This document shows positions 1,340 to 5,767 of a stretch of 5,864 nt of DNA, piece by piece (the stretch's first letter is position 1; every line of letters begins with the position of its first letter). The notes beneath the pieces are model-generated. The model worked only from the letters and a program-made list of their open reading frames with translations, ran no database searches and was not told the DNA's origin. Source of the stretch: Deltaproteobacteria bacterium RBG_13_61_14 (GTDB taxonomy: Bacteria; RBG-13-61-14); assembly GCA_001797815.1 (NCBI GenBank), contig MGQK01000132.1, positions 17,963 to 23,826 on the forward strand. Direction: 5' to 3'. A program made the position numbers and the translations under genes.

Positions 1340-2278
1340 ATGAATGTCTATTTACCCATTGCGGACATGAGCATCAACCTCTTCCTGGTCGTCGGGATCG
1401 GCGCCCTGGTCGGGTTCCTCTCCGGCCTGTTCGGCGTCGGCGGAGGCTTTTTGCTCACCCCGTTGATGATGATGATCGGCATCCCGCCCGCCGTGGCCGC
1501 GGCCTCGGACTCGAACCAGATCGTGGCCGGCGCGTCCTCCGGCGCCTTCGCCCACTGGCGGATGGGCAACGTGGATTTCAAGATGGGTCTCACCATCCTG
1601 GTCGGCGGCATCGCCGGCGGCACCCTGGGCGTGCAGGTGGTCAAAATCCTGCGGGCGGTCGGCAATTTCGAGTTCGCCATGAAGCTGATCTACGTGTTCA
1701 TGCTCGGCTTGGTCGGCGGGGCCATGCTCATCGAGAGCCTGAGCACCCTGCGCAAGATCCGGATGGAGGTCTCGGCCGCGCCGCCCCAGTTCAGCGAGCC
1801 GCGGCTGAGCCGACTCTTCCGCCGACTGCCGCTGCAGATGACCTTTCGCAAGTCCCGGCTCAAGACTTCGGCCATCTTTCCCTTTGCCATCGGCTTCGCG
1901 GTCGGCTTCCTGGCCGCCATGCTGGGCGTGGGCGGCGGCTTCATCATGATCCCGGCCATGATCTACATCATCGGCATGCCCACCATCACCGCGGTGGGAA
2001 CCGACCTCTTCCAGATCGTGCTCACCTCGGCCAACGTCACCTTCCAGCAGGCCATGACCAACCACACCGTGGACATCCTCCTCGCGCTGTGCCTCTTGCT
2101 CGGCTCCACTTTCGGCGCTCAGATCGGGGCGCGGGCGAGCAAGCTGTTCCGGGGCGAGCAAATCCGGGTCCTGCTCTCGGTCATTGTCCTGGCCATGATG
2201 GTCAAGCTCTTGCTGGACCTGGTGCTGACCCCGGATAATCTGATCAGCTTTGCCAAGGGCGTCTCTGGAGGACACTGA
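1340..2278 (+). CDS. TSUP-family (TauE/SafE-like) anion permease
   Basis: This 312-residue integral membrane protein belongs to the TSUP family, whose members move sulfite, sulfoacetate, thiosulfate or related sulfur or organic anions across the inner membrane. It shows the family's internal duplication. GFLSGLFGVGGGFLLTPLM (25-43) matches GFLAAMLGVGGGFIMIPAM (189-207). The segment GIPPAVAAASDSNQIV (47-62) likewise matches GMPTITAVGTDLFQIV (212-227). About eight membrane segments are visible. A hydrophilic, Arg/Lys-rich linker (about 134-176) joins the halves and is probably cytoplasmic, which is rather long for the family. ATG 1340 has a good ribosome site. The stop codon overlaps the next start by one base (TGATG), which indicates translational coupling. 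From memory, TSUP genes are often adjacent to TIGR02186 genes in alphaproteobacteria, which matches the next gene here. The substrate and direction of transport cannot be read from sequence; the family assignment is secure. Confidence 0.93.
   Translation: MNVYLPIADMSINLFLVVGIGALVGFLSGLFGVGGGFLLTPLMMMIGIPPAVAAASDSNQIVAGASSGAFAHWRMGNVDFKMGLTILVGGIAGGTLGVQVVKILRAVGNFEFAMKLIYVFMLGLVGGAMLIESLSTLRKIRMEVSAAPPQFSEPRLSRLFRRLPLQMTFRKSRLKTSAIFPFAIGFAVGFLAAMLGVGGGFIMIPAMIYIIGMPTITAVGTDLFQIVLTSANVTFQQAMTNHTVDILLALCLLLGSTFGAQIGARASKLFRGEQIRVLLSVIVLAMMVKLLLDLVLTPDNLISFAKGVSGGH
2267..2271 (+). promoter_or_regulatory. Ribosome-binding site inside the 3' end of the TSUP gene
   Basis: GGAGG lies 6 bases before ATG 2278 and is read at the same time as the last codons of the permease. 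The 14-base junction 2267-2280 reappears with one base change at 3139-3152. Confidence 0.8.
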
Positions 2279-3150
2279 TGAAAACTAAAGCCCTTGCCGG
2301 TAAAAGTCGCCGCCTCGGGGCCGGCGCGGTTTTAGGTCTGCTGCTCGCGGGGTTGATCCTGGTCAAGGCCCGGGCCGGGACCGAGGTCACCCCGGGGCCG
2401 AGTCCGGCCGCCGCACTCGAGGCGCTCGCCCAGCCGGCCGCGGCCAACGACGTGGTGACCGATTGCTCCAAGGATGAGATTCAAGTGGGCATCAACTATC
2501 GGGGGGACCGGATCGACTTTTTCGGCACCCTGGGCGACTCCGGGGCGGACGCGGTGATCGTCAAGCTCACCAGCCCCGCGGAGACCGTGAAGCTCAACCA
2601 GAAGGGCCGGGTGGGACCGGTCTGGATGAACGTCAAGCAGCACACGGTGGAGAGCGTGCCTTTCATCTACCAGATCAGCGCCTCGGACCGGCTGGACCAG
2701 ATCCTGTCGCCCGAGTTGGAGCAGAAGCTGGGCATCGGGTTCGAGGCGCTCAAGGGGCGGATGGTCATCCACACCACCAAGGGCGAAGCGGAGCCGGCCG
2801 ATGCGGAGATCGTGTTCCAGGGCCTGTTGAAGCTGAAGCAAAAAGAAGGTCTCTACAAGATCAATGAGGAGAACCGGATCAAGATCAAGCAGGGGGTGCT
2901 CTTCCGGCATCGCATCGTCTTTCCCGCGGCAAGCAAAGAAGGGGATTACCTGGTGGAGACTTACCTGTTCCGGCAGGGCCGCCTGCTCCAGACCGTGACC
3001 GACACCATCCACGTCCAAAAGGTGGGCCTGGAAGCCAAGCTGGTGCGCTGGGCGCAAGAGCGGCCCAAGCTCTACGGTCTGGCCGCGGTGGTGATCGCTC
3101 TGGGGGCCGGGCTGTTGGTCGGCTTCATCTTCAAGGGAGGAGGACATTGA
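2278..3150 (+). CDS. TIGR02186/Alph_Pro_TM-like membrane-anchored protein
   Basis: This 290-residue protein has a hydrophobic N-terminal segment (about 13-30, after a basic KSRR) that looks like a signal peptide, with possible cleavage after ARA near 33. A large soluble domain (about 60-262) and a single C-terminal membrane helix (about 265-286) follow. I recognise the pattern of the TIGR02186 family (Pfam Alph_Pro_TM): a DRIDFFG segment near 77-83, AVIVKLTSP then PVWMN near 92-118, VPFIYQISAS near 127-136, VLFRHRIVFP near 207-216, GDYLVETYLFRQG near 222-234, and VQKVGLE followed by RPKLYGLAAVV before the helix. The soluble part is predicted to face the periplasm and is strand-rich. No enzymatic motif is seen. 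Its biochemical function is unknown. Coupling to the TSUP permease by a TGATG overlap suggests it is a partner or accessory subunit of that transporter. Residues 34-58 form an Ala/Pro-rich linker. Family call by pattern memory, not by alignment. Confidence 0.75.
   Translation: MKTKALAGKSRRLGAGAVLGLLLAGLILVKARAGTEVTPGPSPAAALEALAQPAAANDVVTDCSKDEIQVGINYRGDRIDFFGTLGDSGADAVIVKLTSPAETVKLNQKGRVGPVWMNVKQHTVESVPFIYQISASDRLDQILSPELEQKLGIGFEALKGRMVIHTTKGEAEPADAEIVFQGLLKLKQKEGLYKINEENRIKIKQGVLFRHRIVFPAASKEGDYLVETYLFRQGRLLQTVTDTIHVQKVGLEAKLVRWAQERPKLYGLAAVVIALGAGLLVGFIFKGGGH
3136..3143 (+). promoter_or_regulatory. Ribosome-binding site deciding the start of the universal stress protein
   Basis: Two overlapping GGAGG copies (3136-3140 and 3139-3143) precede the start. 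The second is 6 bases from ATG 3150 but only 3 bases from the in-frame TTG 3147. This favours ATG 3150, giving a 1-base TGATG overlap with the upstream stop codon, the same layout as the preceding gene pair. Confidence 0.75.
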
Positions 3151-3629
3151 TGGTCGCCGAGTTAAAACGGATCATGGTCGCCACCGACGGGAGCAAGGCG
3201 GCCGAGCACGCCGTGCGCTATGCGGCGCGCCTGGCCAAGCGGCGGGGCACGGAACTGGTGATCTTGCATATCGTGAGTTACAAGCGGGTGGGCTACTGGG
3301 CCTTTATTGACGGACATTTCAAGAAGGAGCTGATCCTGGCCGCGAGCAAGATCGTGGATGCGGCCGAGGCCCTGGTTAAGGAGTACGAGGTGGCGTGCTC
3401 CCGCGTGATCCGGGAGGCGGAGAAGTTGCCGCACCTGGCCATTGTGGACGTGCTCGAGGAACGCAAGGACATCTGGGTGCTGGTCCTGGGCGACAAGGGC
3501 CAGGACTTCGAGGACCGCCAGACCCTGGGGTCCACCACCCACGGAGTGCTGCACGAGTTGTCCCGGCGCCAGATCCCGGTGCCGCTGCTGGTCGTTCCCT
3601 ATGTGGAAGGGGTCGAGTTGACCGTCTGA
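3150..3629 (+). CDS. Universal stress protein (UspA family), ATP-binding type
   Basis: This 159-residue cytoplasmic protein is a single Usp domain of normal family length. It opens with beta-strand RIMVATDGS (Asp13 in the position that contacts adenine). The nucleotide-binding signature G-2x-G-9x-G-S/T is complete: Gly114-Asp-Lys-Gly117, nine residues, then Gly127-Ser-Thr. It closes with the typical VPLLVVPY strand. It should therefore be an ATP-binding member rather than the non-binding UspA type. Start: ATG 3150 is preferred to TTG 3147, which would add one Met, because of ribosome-site spacing. Translation is probably coupled to the TIGR02186-like gene. In operons with transporters, Usp proteins are commonly thought to act as nucleotide-dependent regulators. 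That role here, on the TSUP or DASS transporter, is inferred from position only. The middle (about 46-100) is less typical and helix-rich. Confidence 0.93.
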   Translation: MVAELKRIMVATDGSKAAEHAVRYAARLAKRRGTELVILHIVSYKRVGYWAFIDGHFKKELILAASKIVDAAEALVKEYEVACSRVIREAEKLPHLAIVDVLEERKDIWVLVLGDKGQDFEDRQTLGSTTHGVLHELSRRQIPVPLLVVPYVEGVELTV

Positions 3630-3630
3630 G

Positions 3631-3643
3631 CCGGCGCGGCCGG
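3631..3643 (+). other. GC-only hairpin just after the universal stress protein gene
   Basis: CCGGC (3631-3635) pairs with GCCGG (3639-3643) around a 3-base loop, starting 2 bases after the stop codon TGA (3627-3629). No T-tract follows. It could slow exonucleases or partly insulate the first three genes from the last two, but such short GC palindromes are frequent in this base composition. Confidence 0.3.
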
Positions 3644-3681
3644 AGGGTCGCCATCAAGAGGCAACCTGAAACGATCACGAA

Positions 3682-3687
3682 AAGGAG
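3682..3687 (+). promoter_or_regulatory. Ribosome-binding site of the CBS protein gene
   Basis: AAGGAG lies 7 bases before ATG 3695, within a purine-rich run. It fixes the start there, although the frame stays open far upstream inside the universal stress protein gene. Confidence 0.8.
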
Positions 3688-3694
3688 AAGAGAG

Positions 3695-4219
3695 ATGGAA
3701 ACAAAACGGGCGGGCGATTTGATGATCCCCCTGGACAGATACCCGCACATCCCCTACTGGTTCACGCTTCGCCAGGCCATGGTGGAGATGGAAAAGTCGG
3801 AAATCGAGATCGATGGCCGCAAATCCCTGCCCCGGGTGGTGCTGGTCTTTGACGAGACTTACCGGCTCCTGGGCATGATCCGCCGGCGCGACATCCTGCG
3901 CGGACTGGAGCCCAGCTTCTTGACCAGCCAGCCGCTCGAATACCGGAAAAAGCTGTTCGACGTGAAAATGGACCCCAACCTGTCCATGCTTTCGCCCGAA
4001 AGGCTGCTCGAGGGCCTGCGCGAGCGGGCCGAGCGGCCGGTGCGGGACGTGATGCGCCCCATCCAGGTGACCGTGGAATTCGAGGACCACATGGTCAAGG
4101 TCATTTACGAGATGGTGGACAACAACTTGAGCCTGCTCCCGGTCCTGCAAAACGGCAAAGTGGTCGGCGTGGTGCGTTCGGTGGACGTGTTTCACGAAAT
4201 TGCCCAGCTCTTGCTCTGA
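3695..4219 (+). CDS. Stand-alone tandem CBS-domain protein
   Basis: This 174-residue soluble protein consists of two CBS motifs forming one Bateman module. The first spans about 5-72: AGDLMIPLDRYPHI, then the helix TLRQAMVEM, then PRVVLVFDETYRLLGMIRRRDIL. The second spans about 115-173: PVRDVMRPIQVTV, then LSLLPVLQNGKVVGVVRSVDVFHEI. A charged segment (about 73-114) joins them. CBS pairs usually bind AMP, ATP, SAM or related ligands. In the consensus G-h-h-S/T-x-x-D ligand motif, both copies keep Asp (Asp66 and Asp164, which normally binds ribose) but have Arg at the S/T position (Arg63 and Arg161). No catalytic or membrane domain is fused, so it is most likely a regulatory partner that senses a nucleotide or ligand. 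The neighbouring universal stress protein and DASS transporter genes are the obvious candidates to work with. The DASS gene follows after 27 bases. Confidence 0.9.
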   Translation: METKRAGDLMIPLDRYPHIPYWFTLRQAMVEMEKSEIEIDGRKSLPRVVLVFDETYRLLGMIRRRDILRGLEPSFLTSQPLEYRKKLFDVKMDPNLSMLSPERLLEGLRERAERPVRDVMRPIQVTVEFEDHMVKVIYEMVDNNLSLLPVLQNGKVVGVVRSVDVFHEIAQLLL

Positions 4220-4246: not shown

Positions 4247-5767
4247 ATGGATCAAAAAAGTCAAGAGCCTCGCCGCAGCGGGCTGCCGCCGATGCCCGAG
4301 GACATCTACTTAGCCAAGGCCGAAAAGCGCCTGGACCTGAAACGAGTCTTCTTTATCCTTCTAGGAATCGCCTTGTTTTGCCTGGTCTATTGGGCGCCTC
4401 CGGTGAAAGACGCGATTGACCCCGCGGGAAAAGCCTTCCCCCTCACCTACGAGGGCAAGGCCGCGCTCGCCCTGTTCCTGCTCGCCGCCACCTGGTGGGT
4501 CTTTGAGGTAGTTCCCATCGGAGTGACCGCCATCCTCATCGGCGTGGTCCAGGCCCTGTTCCTGATCCGGCCGGCCAAGGCCGCCTTCACCGATTTCATG
4601 GACCCCTCGGTGTGGTTTATCTTCGCCTCGCTCGTGATCGGCAAGGTCTTTACCAAGACCGGGCTGACCCAGCGCATGGCTTACAAGATGCTGGTCCTGG
4701 TGGGCGAGCGCACCAGCATGATCTACCTGGGCTGCTTCTTTATCGTCGCCGCCCTCACCCTGATCATGGCCCACACCGCGGTGGCCGCCACCGTGTTCCC
4801 CCTGCTCATGGCCATTTACGGGCTTTACGAGGAAGGAGACAAGCCGACCAAGTTCGGCAAGGGCCTGTTCATCGGCATGGCCTTTGCCGCCGGCGCCGGC
4901 AGCGTGGTCACCCTGCTCGGCGCGGCCCGGGGCGCGGTGGCCATCGGCTTTTTCAAGGACATGGCCGGCCGCGAAATCACGTTCTTCGAGCTCTCTTATT
5001 ACATGTTTCCCATCGGCTGGCTGATGGTCTTCCTGGTCTGGCTGCTGATCCTGGTCTTCTTCCGGCCGGAGAAAAGCACCATCCCCGGTCTGCGCGAGCG
5101 GGCCCAAGCGCTGTATGCGCGGCTGGGCAGGATTTCTCGCACCGAAGTCCTGGCCCTGGTGATCGTGTTCTCCACCATCCTGGTCTTGAGCCTGCGGTCC
5201 TTCTTCCCGGTCCTCAACCCCCTGGACAAAAGCGCCATCATCCTGGTCTCCACCCTGCTCTTCTTCGTCTTCAAAATCCTGGACCTCGACGACCTCGAAA
5301 CCATCCCCTGGAACATCGCCCTGCTCTTCGGCGGGGCCATGAGCATCGGCTTCTGCCTCTGGCAGACCGGCGCCGCCAACTGGCTCGCGGTCAAGTGGCT
5401 CTCCCTGTTCCAGCACGCCCACTGGATCATCTTCGTGCTCGGCATCGCCTTCTTCTGTATGGTCATGACCAACTTCATCATGAACGTGGCCGCCATCGCC
5501 ATCACCATGCCCATCGCGCTGGCCATCGCCCCCTACCTGGGCGTGGCCCCCGAGGTGATCCTCTTCGCCTCTCTCGCCACCGCGGGCATGCCCTTCCTGC
5601 TCCTGATCGGAGCCGCGCCCAACGCCATTGCCTATGGCTCCAACCAGTTCACCTCCGGCGAGTTCTTCAAGGCCGGCATCCCCGCCAGTATCATCCTGAT
5701 GGCCGTGCTCGCACTCTTCGTCTGGCTGATCTGGCCGCTGATGGGCATGCCGGTCCTGCTCAAGTAG
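4247..5767 (+). CDS. DASS/SLC13-family anion transporter, atypical motifs
   Basis: This 506-residue inner-membrane protein has about 11-12 hydrophobic segments after a hydrophilic N-terminal tail of about 32 residues. It resembles the divalent anion:Na+ symporter (SLC13) family, whose members carry dicarboxylates, citrate or sulfate. Family landmarks are WWVFEVVPIGVTAILIG (83-99), DPSVWFIFASLVIGK (119-133), WNIALLFGGAMSIGF (355-369), and GAAPNAIAYGSNQF (455-468), followed by GEFFKAGIPAS. It departs from well-studied members at conserved ion and substrate sites. Where SNT is expected it has AHT (175-177) in the first repeat and MNV (412-414) in the second. The first-repeat equivalent of GTPPN reads GAARG (225-229), with no proline or asparagine. 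The protein is full length with no frameshift, so these look like functional divergence, not decay. It ends the operon. Sodium coupling and substrate are uncertain; membership in the wider ion-transporter superfamily is firm. Confidence 0.88.
   Translation: MDQKSQEPRRSGLPPMPEDIYLAKAEKRLDLKRVFFILLGIALFCLVYWAPPVKDAIDPAGKAFPLTYEGKAALALFLLAATWWVFEVVPIGVTAILIGVVQALFLIRPAKAAFTDFMDPSVWFIFASLVIGKVFTKTGLTQRMAYKMLVLVGERTSMIYLGCFFIVAALTLIMAHTAVAATVFPLLMAIYGLYEEGDKPTKFGKGLFIGMAFAAGAGSVVTLLGAARGAVAIGFFKDMAGREITFFELSYYMFPIGWLMVFLVWLLILVFFRPEKSTIPGLRERAQALYARLGRISRTEVLALVIVFSTILVLSLRSFFPVLNPLDKSAIILVSTLLFFVFKILDLDDLETIPWNIALLFGGAMSIGFCLWQTGAANWLAVKWLSLFQHAHWIIFVLGIAFFCMVMTNFIMNVAAIAITMPIALAIAPYLGVAPEVILFASLATAGMPFLLLIGAAPNAIAYGSNQFTSGEFFKAGIPASIILMAVLALFVWLIWPLMGMPVLLK

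Follow-up and report, generated by a model that had tools for sequence, protein, structure and literature searches.

The 5,864-nucleotide stretch of DNA analysed here (the window; G000:C132:17963-23826, from the 4.74-Mb genome of Deltaproteobacteria bacterium RBG_13_61_14, a member of a small lineage) carries a gene for a TSUP (TauE/SafE) permease that overlaps by one base the gene for a protein of the Alph_Pro_TM family (hereafter APT), and the two genes proved to be near-obligate neighbours in other genomes. With moderate confidence, we favour the reading that TSUP and APT form a sulfur-oxyanion transporter in which the permease would be served by a dedicated membrane-anchored periplasmic subunit and by cytoplasmic regulators, the nature of the substrate being suggested by genomic association. 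The original prediction, made from the DNA of the window, had joined the pair to a universal stress protein (Usp), a CBS-domain protein and a second anion transporter of the DASS family. The observation is real, with a core that proved firmer than could be known at the time, but the boundaries of the unit were drawn wrongly: a phosphoenolpyruvate (PEP)-synthase-like phosphotransferase, a sensor kinase and a receiver protein should be included, and the CBS and DASS proteins should be dropped.

Near-obligate pairing of TSUP and APT

The original proposal that APT is dedicated to serving the permease is supported by the conservation of the gene pair across phyla. A scan with a TSUP alignment returned 80 named loci, 74 of them with enough sequence for APT to be counted and 49 with wide flanks. 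APT adjoins the permease gene in 73 of the 74, the single exception resembling an artefact of automatic gene calling; conversely, 77 of 82 APT open reading frames (ORFs; automatic gene calls) lie directly downstream of a TSUP gene, and most of the unpaired cases again resemble gene-call artefacts. In an independent check that started from APT rather than TSUP, 156 of 240 alphaproteobacterial genomes had the protein above cut-off, and the 30 best-scoring loci examined all had a TSUP gene directly upstream and, in 20 cases, a Usp gene directly downstream, as in the window. In a tree of TSUP proteins (midpoint root, quick method), the APT-linked permeases of sulfate reducers, Acidobacteria and Alphaproteobacteria fall on one side, and five APT-less TSUPs from the same loci are placed across a very long branch.

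The genes and signals of the window are the following:

1-610, + strand: sensor histidine kinase, 3' part (dCache, PAS, HisKA and HATPase domains)
648-1202, + strand: response-regulator receiver protein, 184 residues (PF00072, 93 bits; no sigma-54 domain)
1340-2278, + strand: TSUP (TauE/SafE) permease, 312 residues, C-terminus GGH (PF01925, 165.4 bits; tree)
2267-2280, + strand: TSUP/APT coupling signal, GGAGG (2267-2271) within the TSUP gene, then the overlapping TGATG (2276-2280)
2278-3150, + strand: Alph_Pro_TM protein (APT), 290 residues (PF09608, 206.6 bits)
3139-3152, + strand: APT/Usp coupling signal, GGAGG (3139-3143) within the APT gene, then the overlapping TGATG (3148-3152)
3150-3629, + strand: Usp, 159 residues from the ATG at 3150, the TTG at 3147 being open too (PF00582, 72 bits)
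3695-4219, + strand: CBS-domain protein, 174 residues (PF00571, 49 bits)
4247-5767, + strand: DASS-family transporter, 506 residues (PF00939, 167 bits; TIGR00785, 206 bits)

The five ORFs from TSUP to DASS lie where they had first been placed, and their family assignments were confirmed by Pfam and TIGRFAM profile scores. One-base overlaps join TSUP to APT and APT to Usp, with GGAGG 4 bases ahead of the stop codon at both junctions. Since a shared TGATG is combined in each case with a GGAGG inside the preceding gene, TSUP, APT and Usp are likely to be translationally coupled, which agrees with the coupling first proposed for TSUP and APT. The gaps ahead of the CBS (65 bases) and DASS (27 bases) genes show no such signs. 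A simple promoter and terminator scan of the window gave results at or below chance, and a scan of the window for sigma-54 promoters returned 11 matches, fewer than in shuffled sequences (mean 20).

Membership of the permease in the TSUP family is clear (cut-off 32.6 bits; profile positions 2-237 of 237), as is that of APT in Alph_Pro_TM (gathering cut-off 24.5 bits; profile positions 2-226 of 227). The original assignment of APT to TIGR02186 stood at the level of the Pfam family but not at that of the TIGRFAM model, to which the protein aligns over positions 15-259 of 261 with 114.5 bits (E 4.5e-33) against a cut-off of 255.25; judged by these profiles, APT is a family member below the TIGR02186 equivalog level. 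No paper in the literature collection searched mentions TIGR02186 or PF09608, and a search of solved structures by sequence returned none at a convincing E-value for either APT or TSUP.

A structure model of APT built from 68 sequences, with a mean predicted local distance difference test score of at least 93 in each ten-residue block over residues 61 to 280, shows an immunoglobulin (Ig)-like beta-sandwich made of residues about 57-135 and 202-249, a mixed insertion (136-200) between these two parts, and a C-terminal part that consists of an amphipathic helix (251-261), a membrane helix (263-285) and a short tail. Because the N-terminus is signal-peptide-like (helix 14-30) and a membrane helix follows the sandwich, the model supports a type I membrane protein whose sandwich would lie in the periplasm. 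Fold comparison was tried as a lead to the function of APT and set aside, as it returned only common Ig-like and arrestin-like sandwiches (best Z 9.3; Foldseek TM scores below 0.3 on the query).

The two proteins also have recurrent C-termini, seen at positions 2267-2278 and 3136-3150 of the window and in L006-L085. In the sulfate-reducer type, most permeases terminate in GGH (75 out of 120 TSUP C-termini, a total that takes in the Alphaproteobacteria) and most APT proteins in GxH. For TSUP, this ending follows in part from the GGAGG that serves the next gene as ribosome site; APT keeps its final histidine even where no gene starts right behind it. The window's APT likewise has a GxH tail, whereas its alphaproteobacterial counterparts have ends of the FRK or RR type; the order TSUP-APT-Usp is common to the window and many Alphaproteobacteria.

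Sulfur metabolism and the possible cargo

The genome from which the window derives carries dsrA and dsrD side by side, plus aprA, which together mark the organism as a sulfate reducer. A search of this genome for candidate sulfate carriers, in which the PiT/CysP type was not included, turned up three TSUPs, two DASS proteins and no SulP, so that two of the few candidates are encoded in the window. Among 45 genomes with the TSUP-APT pair, 38 have dsrA above cut-off and three more have pieces of it at contig ends, in a set that is biased, having been picked by similarity to the TSUP of a sulfate reducer. A less biased survey of 297 genomes from one sulfate-reducer phylum, that of G078, found APT together with dsrA in 50, APT without dsrA in 1, dsrA without APT in 94 and neither in 152 (Fisher p 4.5e-17). 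The pair is also present in dsr-bearing Acidobacteria and Alphaproteobacteria; in Thermopetrobacter, TSUP-APT-Usp lies about 5 kb from dsrA, after which come dsrE- and dsrL-like genes.

We propose that one TSUP subfamily and APT would associate physically as a two-subunit transport unit. The permease most likely moves the ion, and APT, with its beta-sandwich presumably in the periplasm beside the permease, would be a fixed periplasmic subunit that could capture the anion, gate it or stabilise the permease. Where dissimilatory sulfite reductase is present, the cargo is most likely sulfate or sulfite, and the direction of transport in the window's sulfate reducer is probably inward. Usp would often join them as a third component on the cytoplasmic side, and the synthesis or activity of the transporter is most likely adjusted by the phosphotransferase that resembles PEP synthase, together with the sensor kinase and the receiver; the DASS protein could serve as a further anion carrier that is co-expressed with the pair. 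A bolder proposition, which we consider rather unlikely, is that APT is an essential periplasmic subunit of the main sulfur-oxyanion transporter in many sulfate or sulfite respirers, and that this transporter is controlled by a previously unrecognised route consisting of a phosphotransferase devoid of the PEP domain, a lone receiver and Usp.

Several observations weigh against a sulfur-oxyanion transporter of this kind. The Fisher test of APT against dsrA ignores shared ancestry, and 94 of the 144 dsrA-bearing genomes in the phylum of G078 are without APT. Genomes G026, G073, G090 and G100 have the pair and no dsrA above cut-off, for which the incompleteness of metagenome-assembled genomes is a possible cause. 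In the 240 alphaproteobacterial genomes APT is common but dsrA occurs in only four (all four with APT), so that the pair is not tied to Dsr as such and would have a wider role in this class; 75 proteins neighbouring ordinary alphaproteobacterial pairs show no recurrent sulfur-metabolism family. Finally, no TSUP-APT fusion was found among the loci, which thus offer no fusion evidence of contact between the two proteins.

The same transporter might instead work outward and export sulfite, or other toxic sulfur species, and so protect the cell when sulfite builds up in the cytoplasm. We hold this to be possible but clearly less probable than import. Sulfite export has been described for TauE of Cupriavidus necator (Weinitschke et al. 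2007, as cited in PMC3949148), one organism with the pair has a sulfite-producing dsr cluster of the oxidative type, and both the spread of the pair among Alphaproteobacteria without Dsr and the presence of Usp and two-component genes, which would fit a stress response, are consistent with such a role; the window's own genome, however, is that of a sulfate reducer without SulP and in need of an importer.

A different cargo altogether, such as bicarbonate, a carboxylate or a sulfonate, with the dsr association reflecting shared anaerobic ancestry, appears decidedly unlikely. It would suit the Alphaproteobacteria that have the pair without Dsr, and four loci (L009, L010, L011, L021) in which the gene right behind Usp, read from the other strand, encodes a carbonic anhydrase, but it sits poorly with the finding of dsrA in 50 of the 51 APT genomes of the phylum of G078 and with the occurrence of the pair in the dsr-bearing members of two other groups.

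Signalling neighbours and the limits of the unit

The PEP-synthase-like phosphotransferase, sensor kinase and receiver, which the original prediction left out, all recur in relatives. In the window's genome, the PEP-synthase-like gene (843 residues) stands directly upstream on the same strand, its stop overlapped by the GTG start of the kinase at G000:C132:16326, outside the window; the whole kinase has 748 residues. Eight genes run in the same direction: PEP-synthase-like, kinase, receiver, TSUP, APT, Usp, CBS and DASS. Of the 49 loci with wide flanks, 36 have a PEP-synthase-like gene near the pair, 39 a receiver, 35 a kinase and 32 a Usp gene, the counts for kinases and receivers being less telling than that for the PEP-synthase-like gene because both are common in such genomes. 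In 39 of 69 loci the PEP-synthase-like gene follows APT directly. Desulfobacterales and Desulfovibrionales most often have the order Usp-TSUP-APT-phosphotransferase-receiver-Usp-Usp (or two more phosphotransferases), next to which stand genes for a sigma-54 regulator and a kinase; the window represents a second type, in which TSUP-APT-Usp is accompanied by signalling genes that are upstream or divergent. A further variant, found in Acidobacteria, Poribacteria and G026 (L004, L020, L030, L041, L053 and L059), has a cytidylate-kinase-like protein beside the pair, in L004 with a BON domain; L004 and L020 have no dsrA above cut-off.

The PEP-synthase-like protein upstream of the window has ATP-grasp (PPDK_N) and phospho-histidine (PEP-utilizers) domains, and its relatives keep an invariant phospho-histidine (H531 in L029), features in common with PEP synthase (PpsA). 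It differs from PpsA in that no profile match was found past about residue 585: the PEP/pyruvate-binding C-terminal domain expected of a PEP synthase went undetected, and a domain of about 300 residues without a Pfam match stands where it would be. This C-terminal domain is conserved in L029:11719-14328 and its relatives, with invariant H625, D626, R629, H632 and H757. A second PEP-synthase-like protein (846 residues, PPDK_N and PEP-utilizers) is encoded in the dsr region of the window's own genome (L116:13744-16284; G000:C113).

The proposal that Usp and CBS proteins report the energy state of the cell to the transporter fared unevenly. The Usp of the window is of the ATP-binding type, its motif G-x2-G-x9-G(S/T) being complete in the form G-x2-G-x9-G-S (GDKGQDFEDRQTLGS). 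Most Usp proteins of related loci lack the motif, however, among them all 33 that are encoded ahead of TSUP and all 20 from Alphaproteobacteria, on account of which energy sensing by Usp cannot be a general principle, and the sequences do not support nucleotide sensing as the general mechanism. In the CBS protein, one of the two expected repeats scores (PF00571).

As to membership of the unit, that of Usp is supported in part by the counts in the wide-flank loci and in the Alphaproteobacteria, whereas CBS lies within 5 kb of the pair in 4 of the 49 loci and DASS in none. The co-occurrence of all five genes was thus not conserved, that of TSUP, APT and Usp was, and the five-gene unit was rejected; CBS and DASS would be local, lineage-specific additions. 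An anion transport system gated by the energy state through a nucleotide-binding Usp and CBS, with DASS as integral second carrier, is very improbable given these counts and the missing Usp motifs, even if the genes are contiguous on one strand in the window, the window's Usp has the motif and one locus, L019, the only other with CBS in the same position, shares the order TSUP-APT-Usp-CBS.

The DASS protein scores above the curated cut-off of TIGR00785 (198.6 bits). Sodium-coupled DASS transporters carry two SNT motifs at the substrate and sodium sites. In a pairwise alignment to VcINDY, the window's protein has AHT and MNV at these two sites and so departs from the sodium-coupled type; its ion coupling or its substrate may be unusual.

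A probable counterpart in Desulfovibrio vulgaris

The TSUP protein DVU2958 of D. vulgaris, a candidate sulfate transporter, groups in a conserved clade (clade B) with proteins that are the sole putative sulfate transporters in two further sulfate reducers (PMC5840216). Its gene is part of the mapped sigma-54 operon DVU2957-DVU2964, which DVU2956 binds and controls and which is classed under transmembrane transport (PMC4641369); DVU2956 reportedly influences both biofilm and H2S production (Zhu et al. 2019, as cited in PMC8586430). With its divergent activator DVU2956, the operon agrees in gene order with Solidesulfovibrio L058 and Humidesulfovibrio L079, which suggests that the D. vulgaris operon is the same module as that of the window. 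By analogy with relatives in Desulfovibrionaceae and Ammonifex, the window's TSUP would fall in clade B; it, too, is a TSUP of a sulfate reducer, and the Ammonifex relative in our survey also has the pair. In contrast to the D. vulgaris operon, the window has phosphotransferase, kinase and receiver genes ahead of TSUP and Usp behind APT, followed by CBS and DASS, and its regulator is no sigma-54 activator.

The module had been thought not to have been described as a unit. This is true in part: the operon with DVU2958 had already been mapped, but the system is only partly in print, and the account of clade B in PMC5840216, as far as searched, does not count APT, Usp or the phosphotransferase among its components. 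The route of sulfate uptake in sulfate reducers is still open, and the 2018 comparative survey, in all genomes of which the overlooked TSUP group was present, could list candidates only (PMC5840216). A TSUP subfamily tied to an obligate partner that is itself tied to dsrA yields a small, testable set of genes and, outside Alphaproteobacteria, a first pointer to what the Alph_Pro_TM family may do. Downstream of the window, L003:1129-5530 encodes SBF-family (ACR3-like), ArsP_1 permease and DsbD_2 proteins and resembles an arsenic-resistance cluster.

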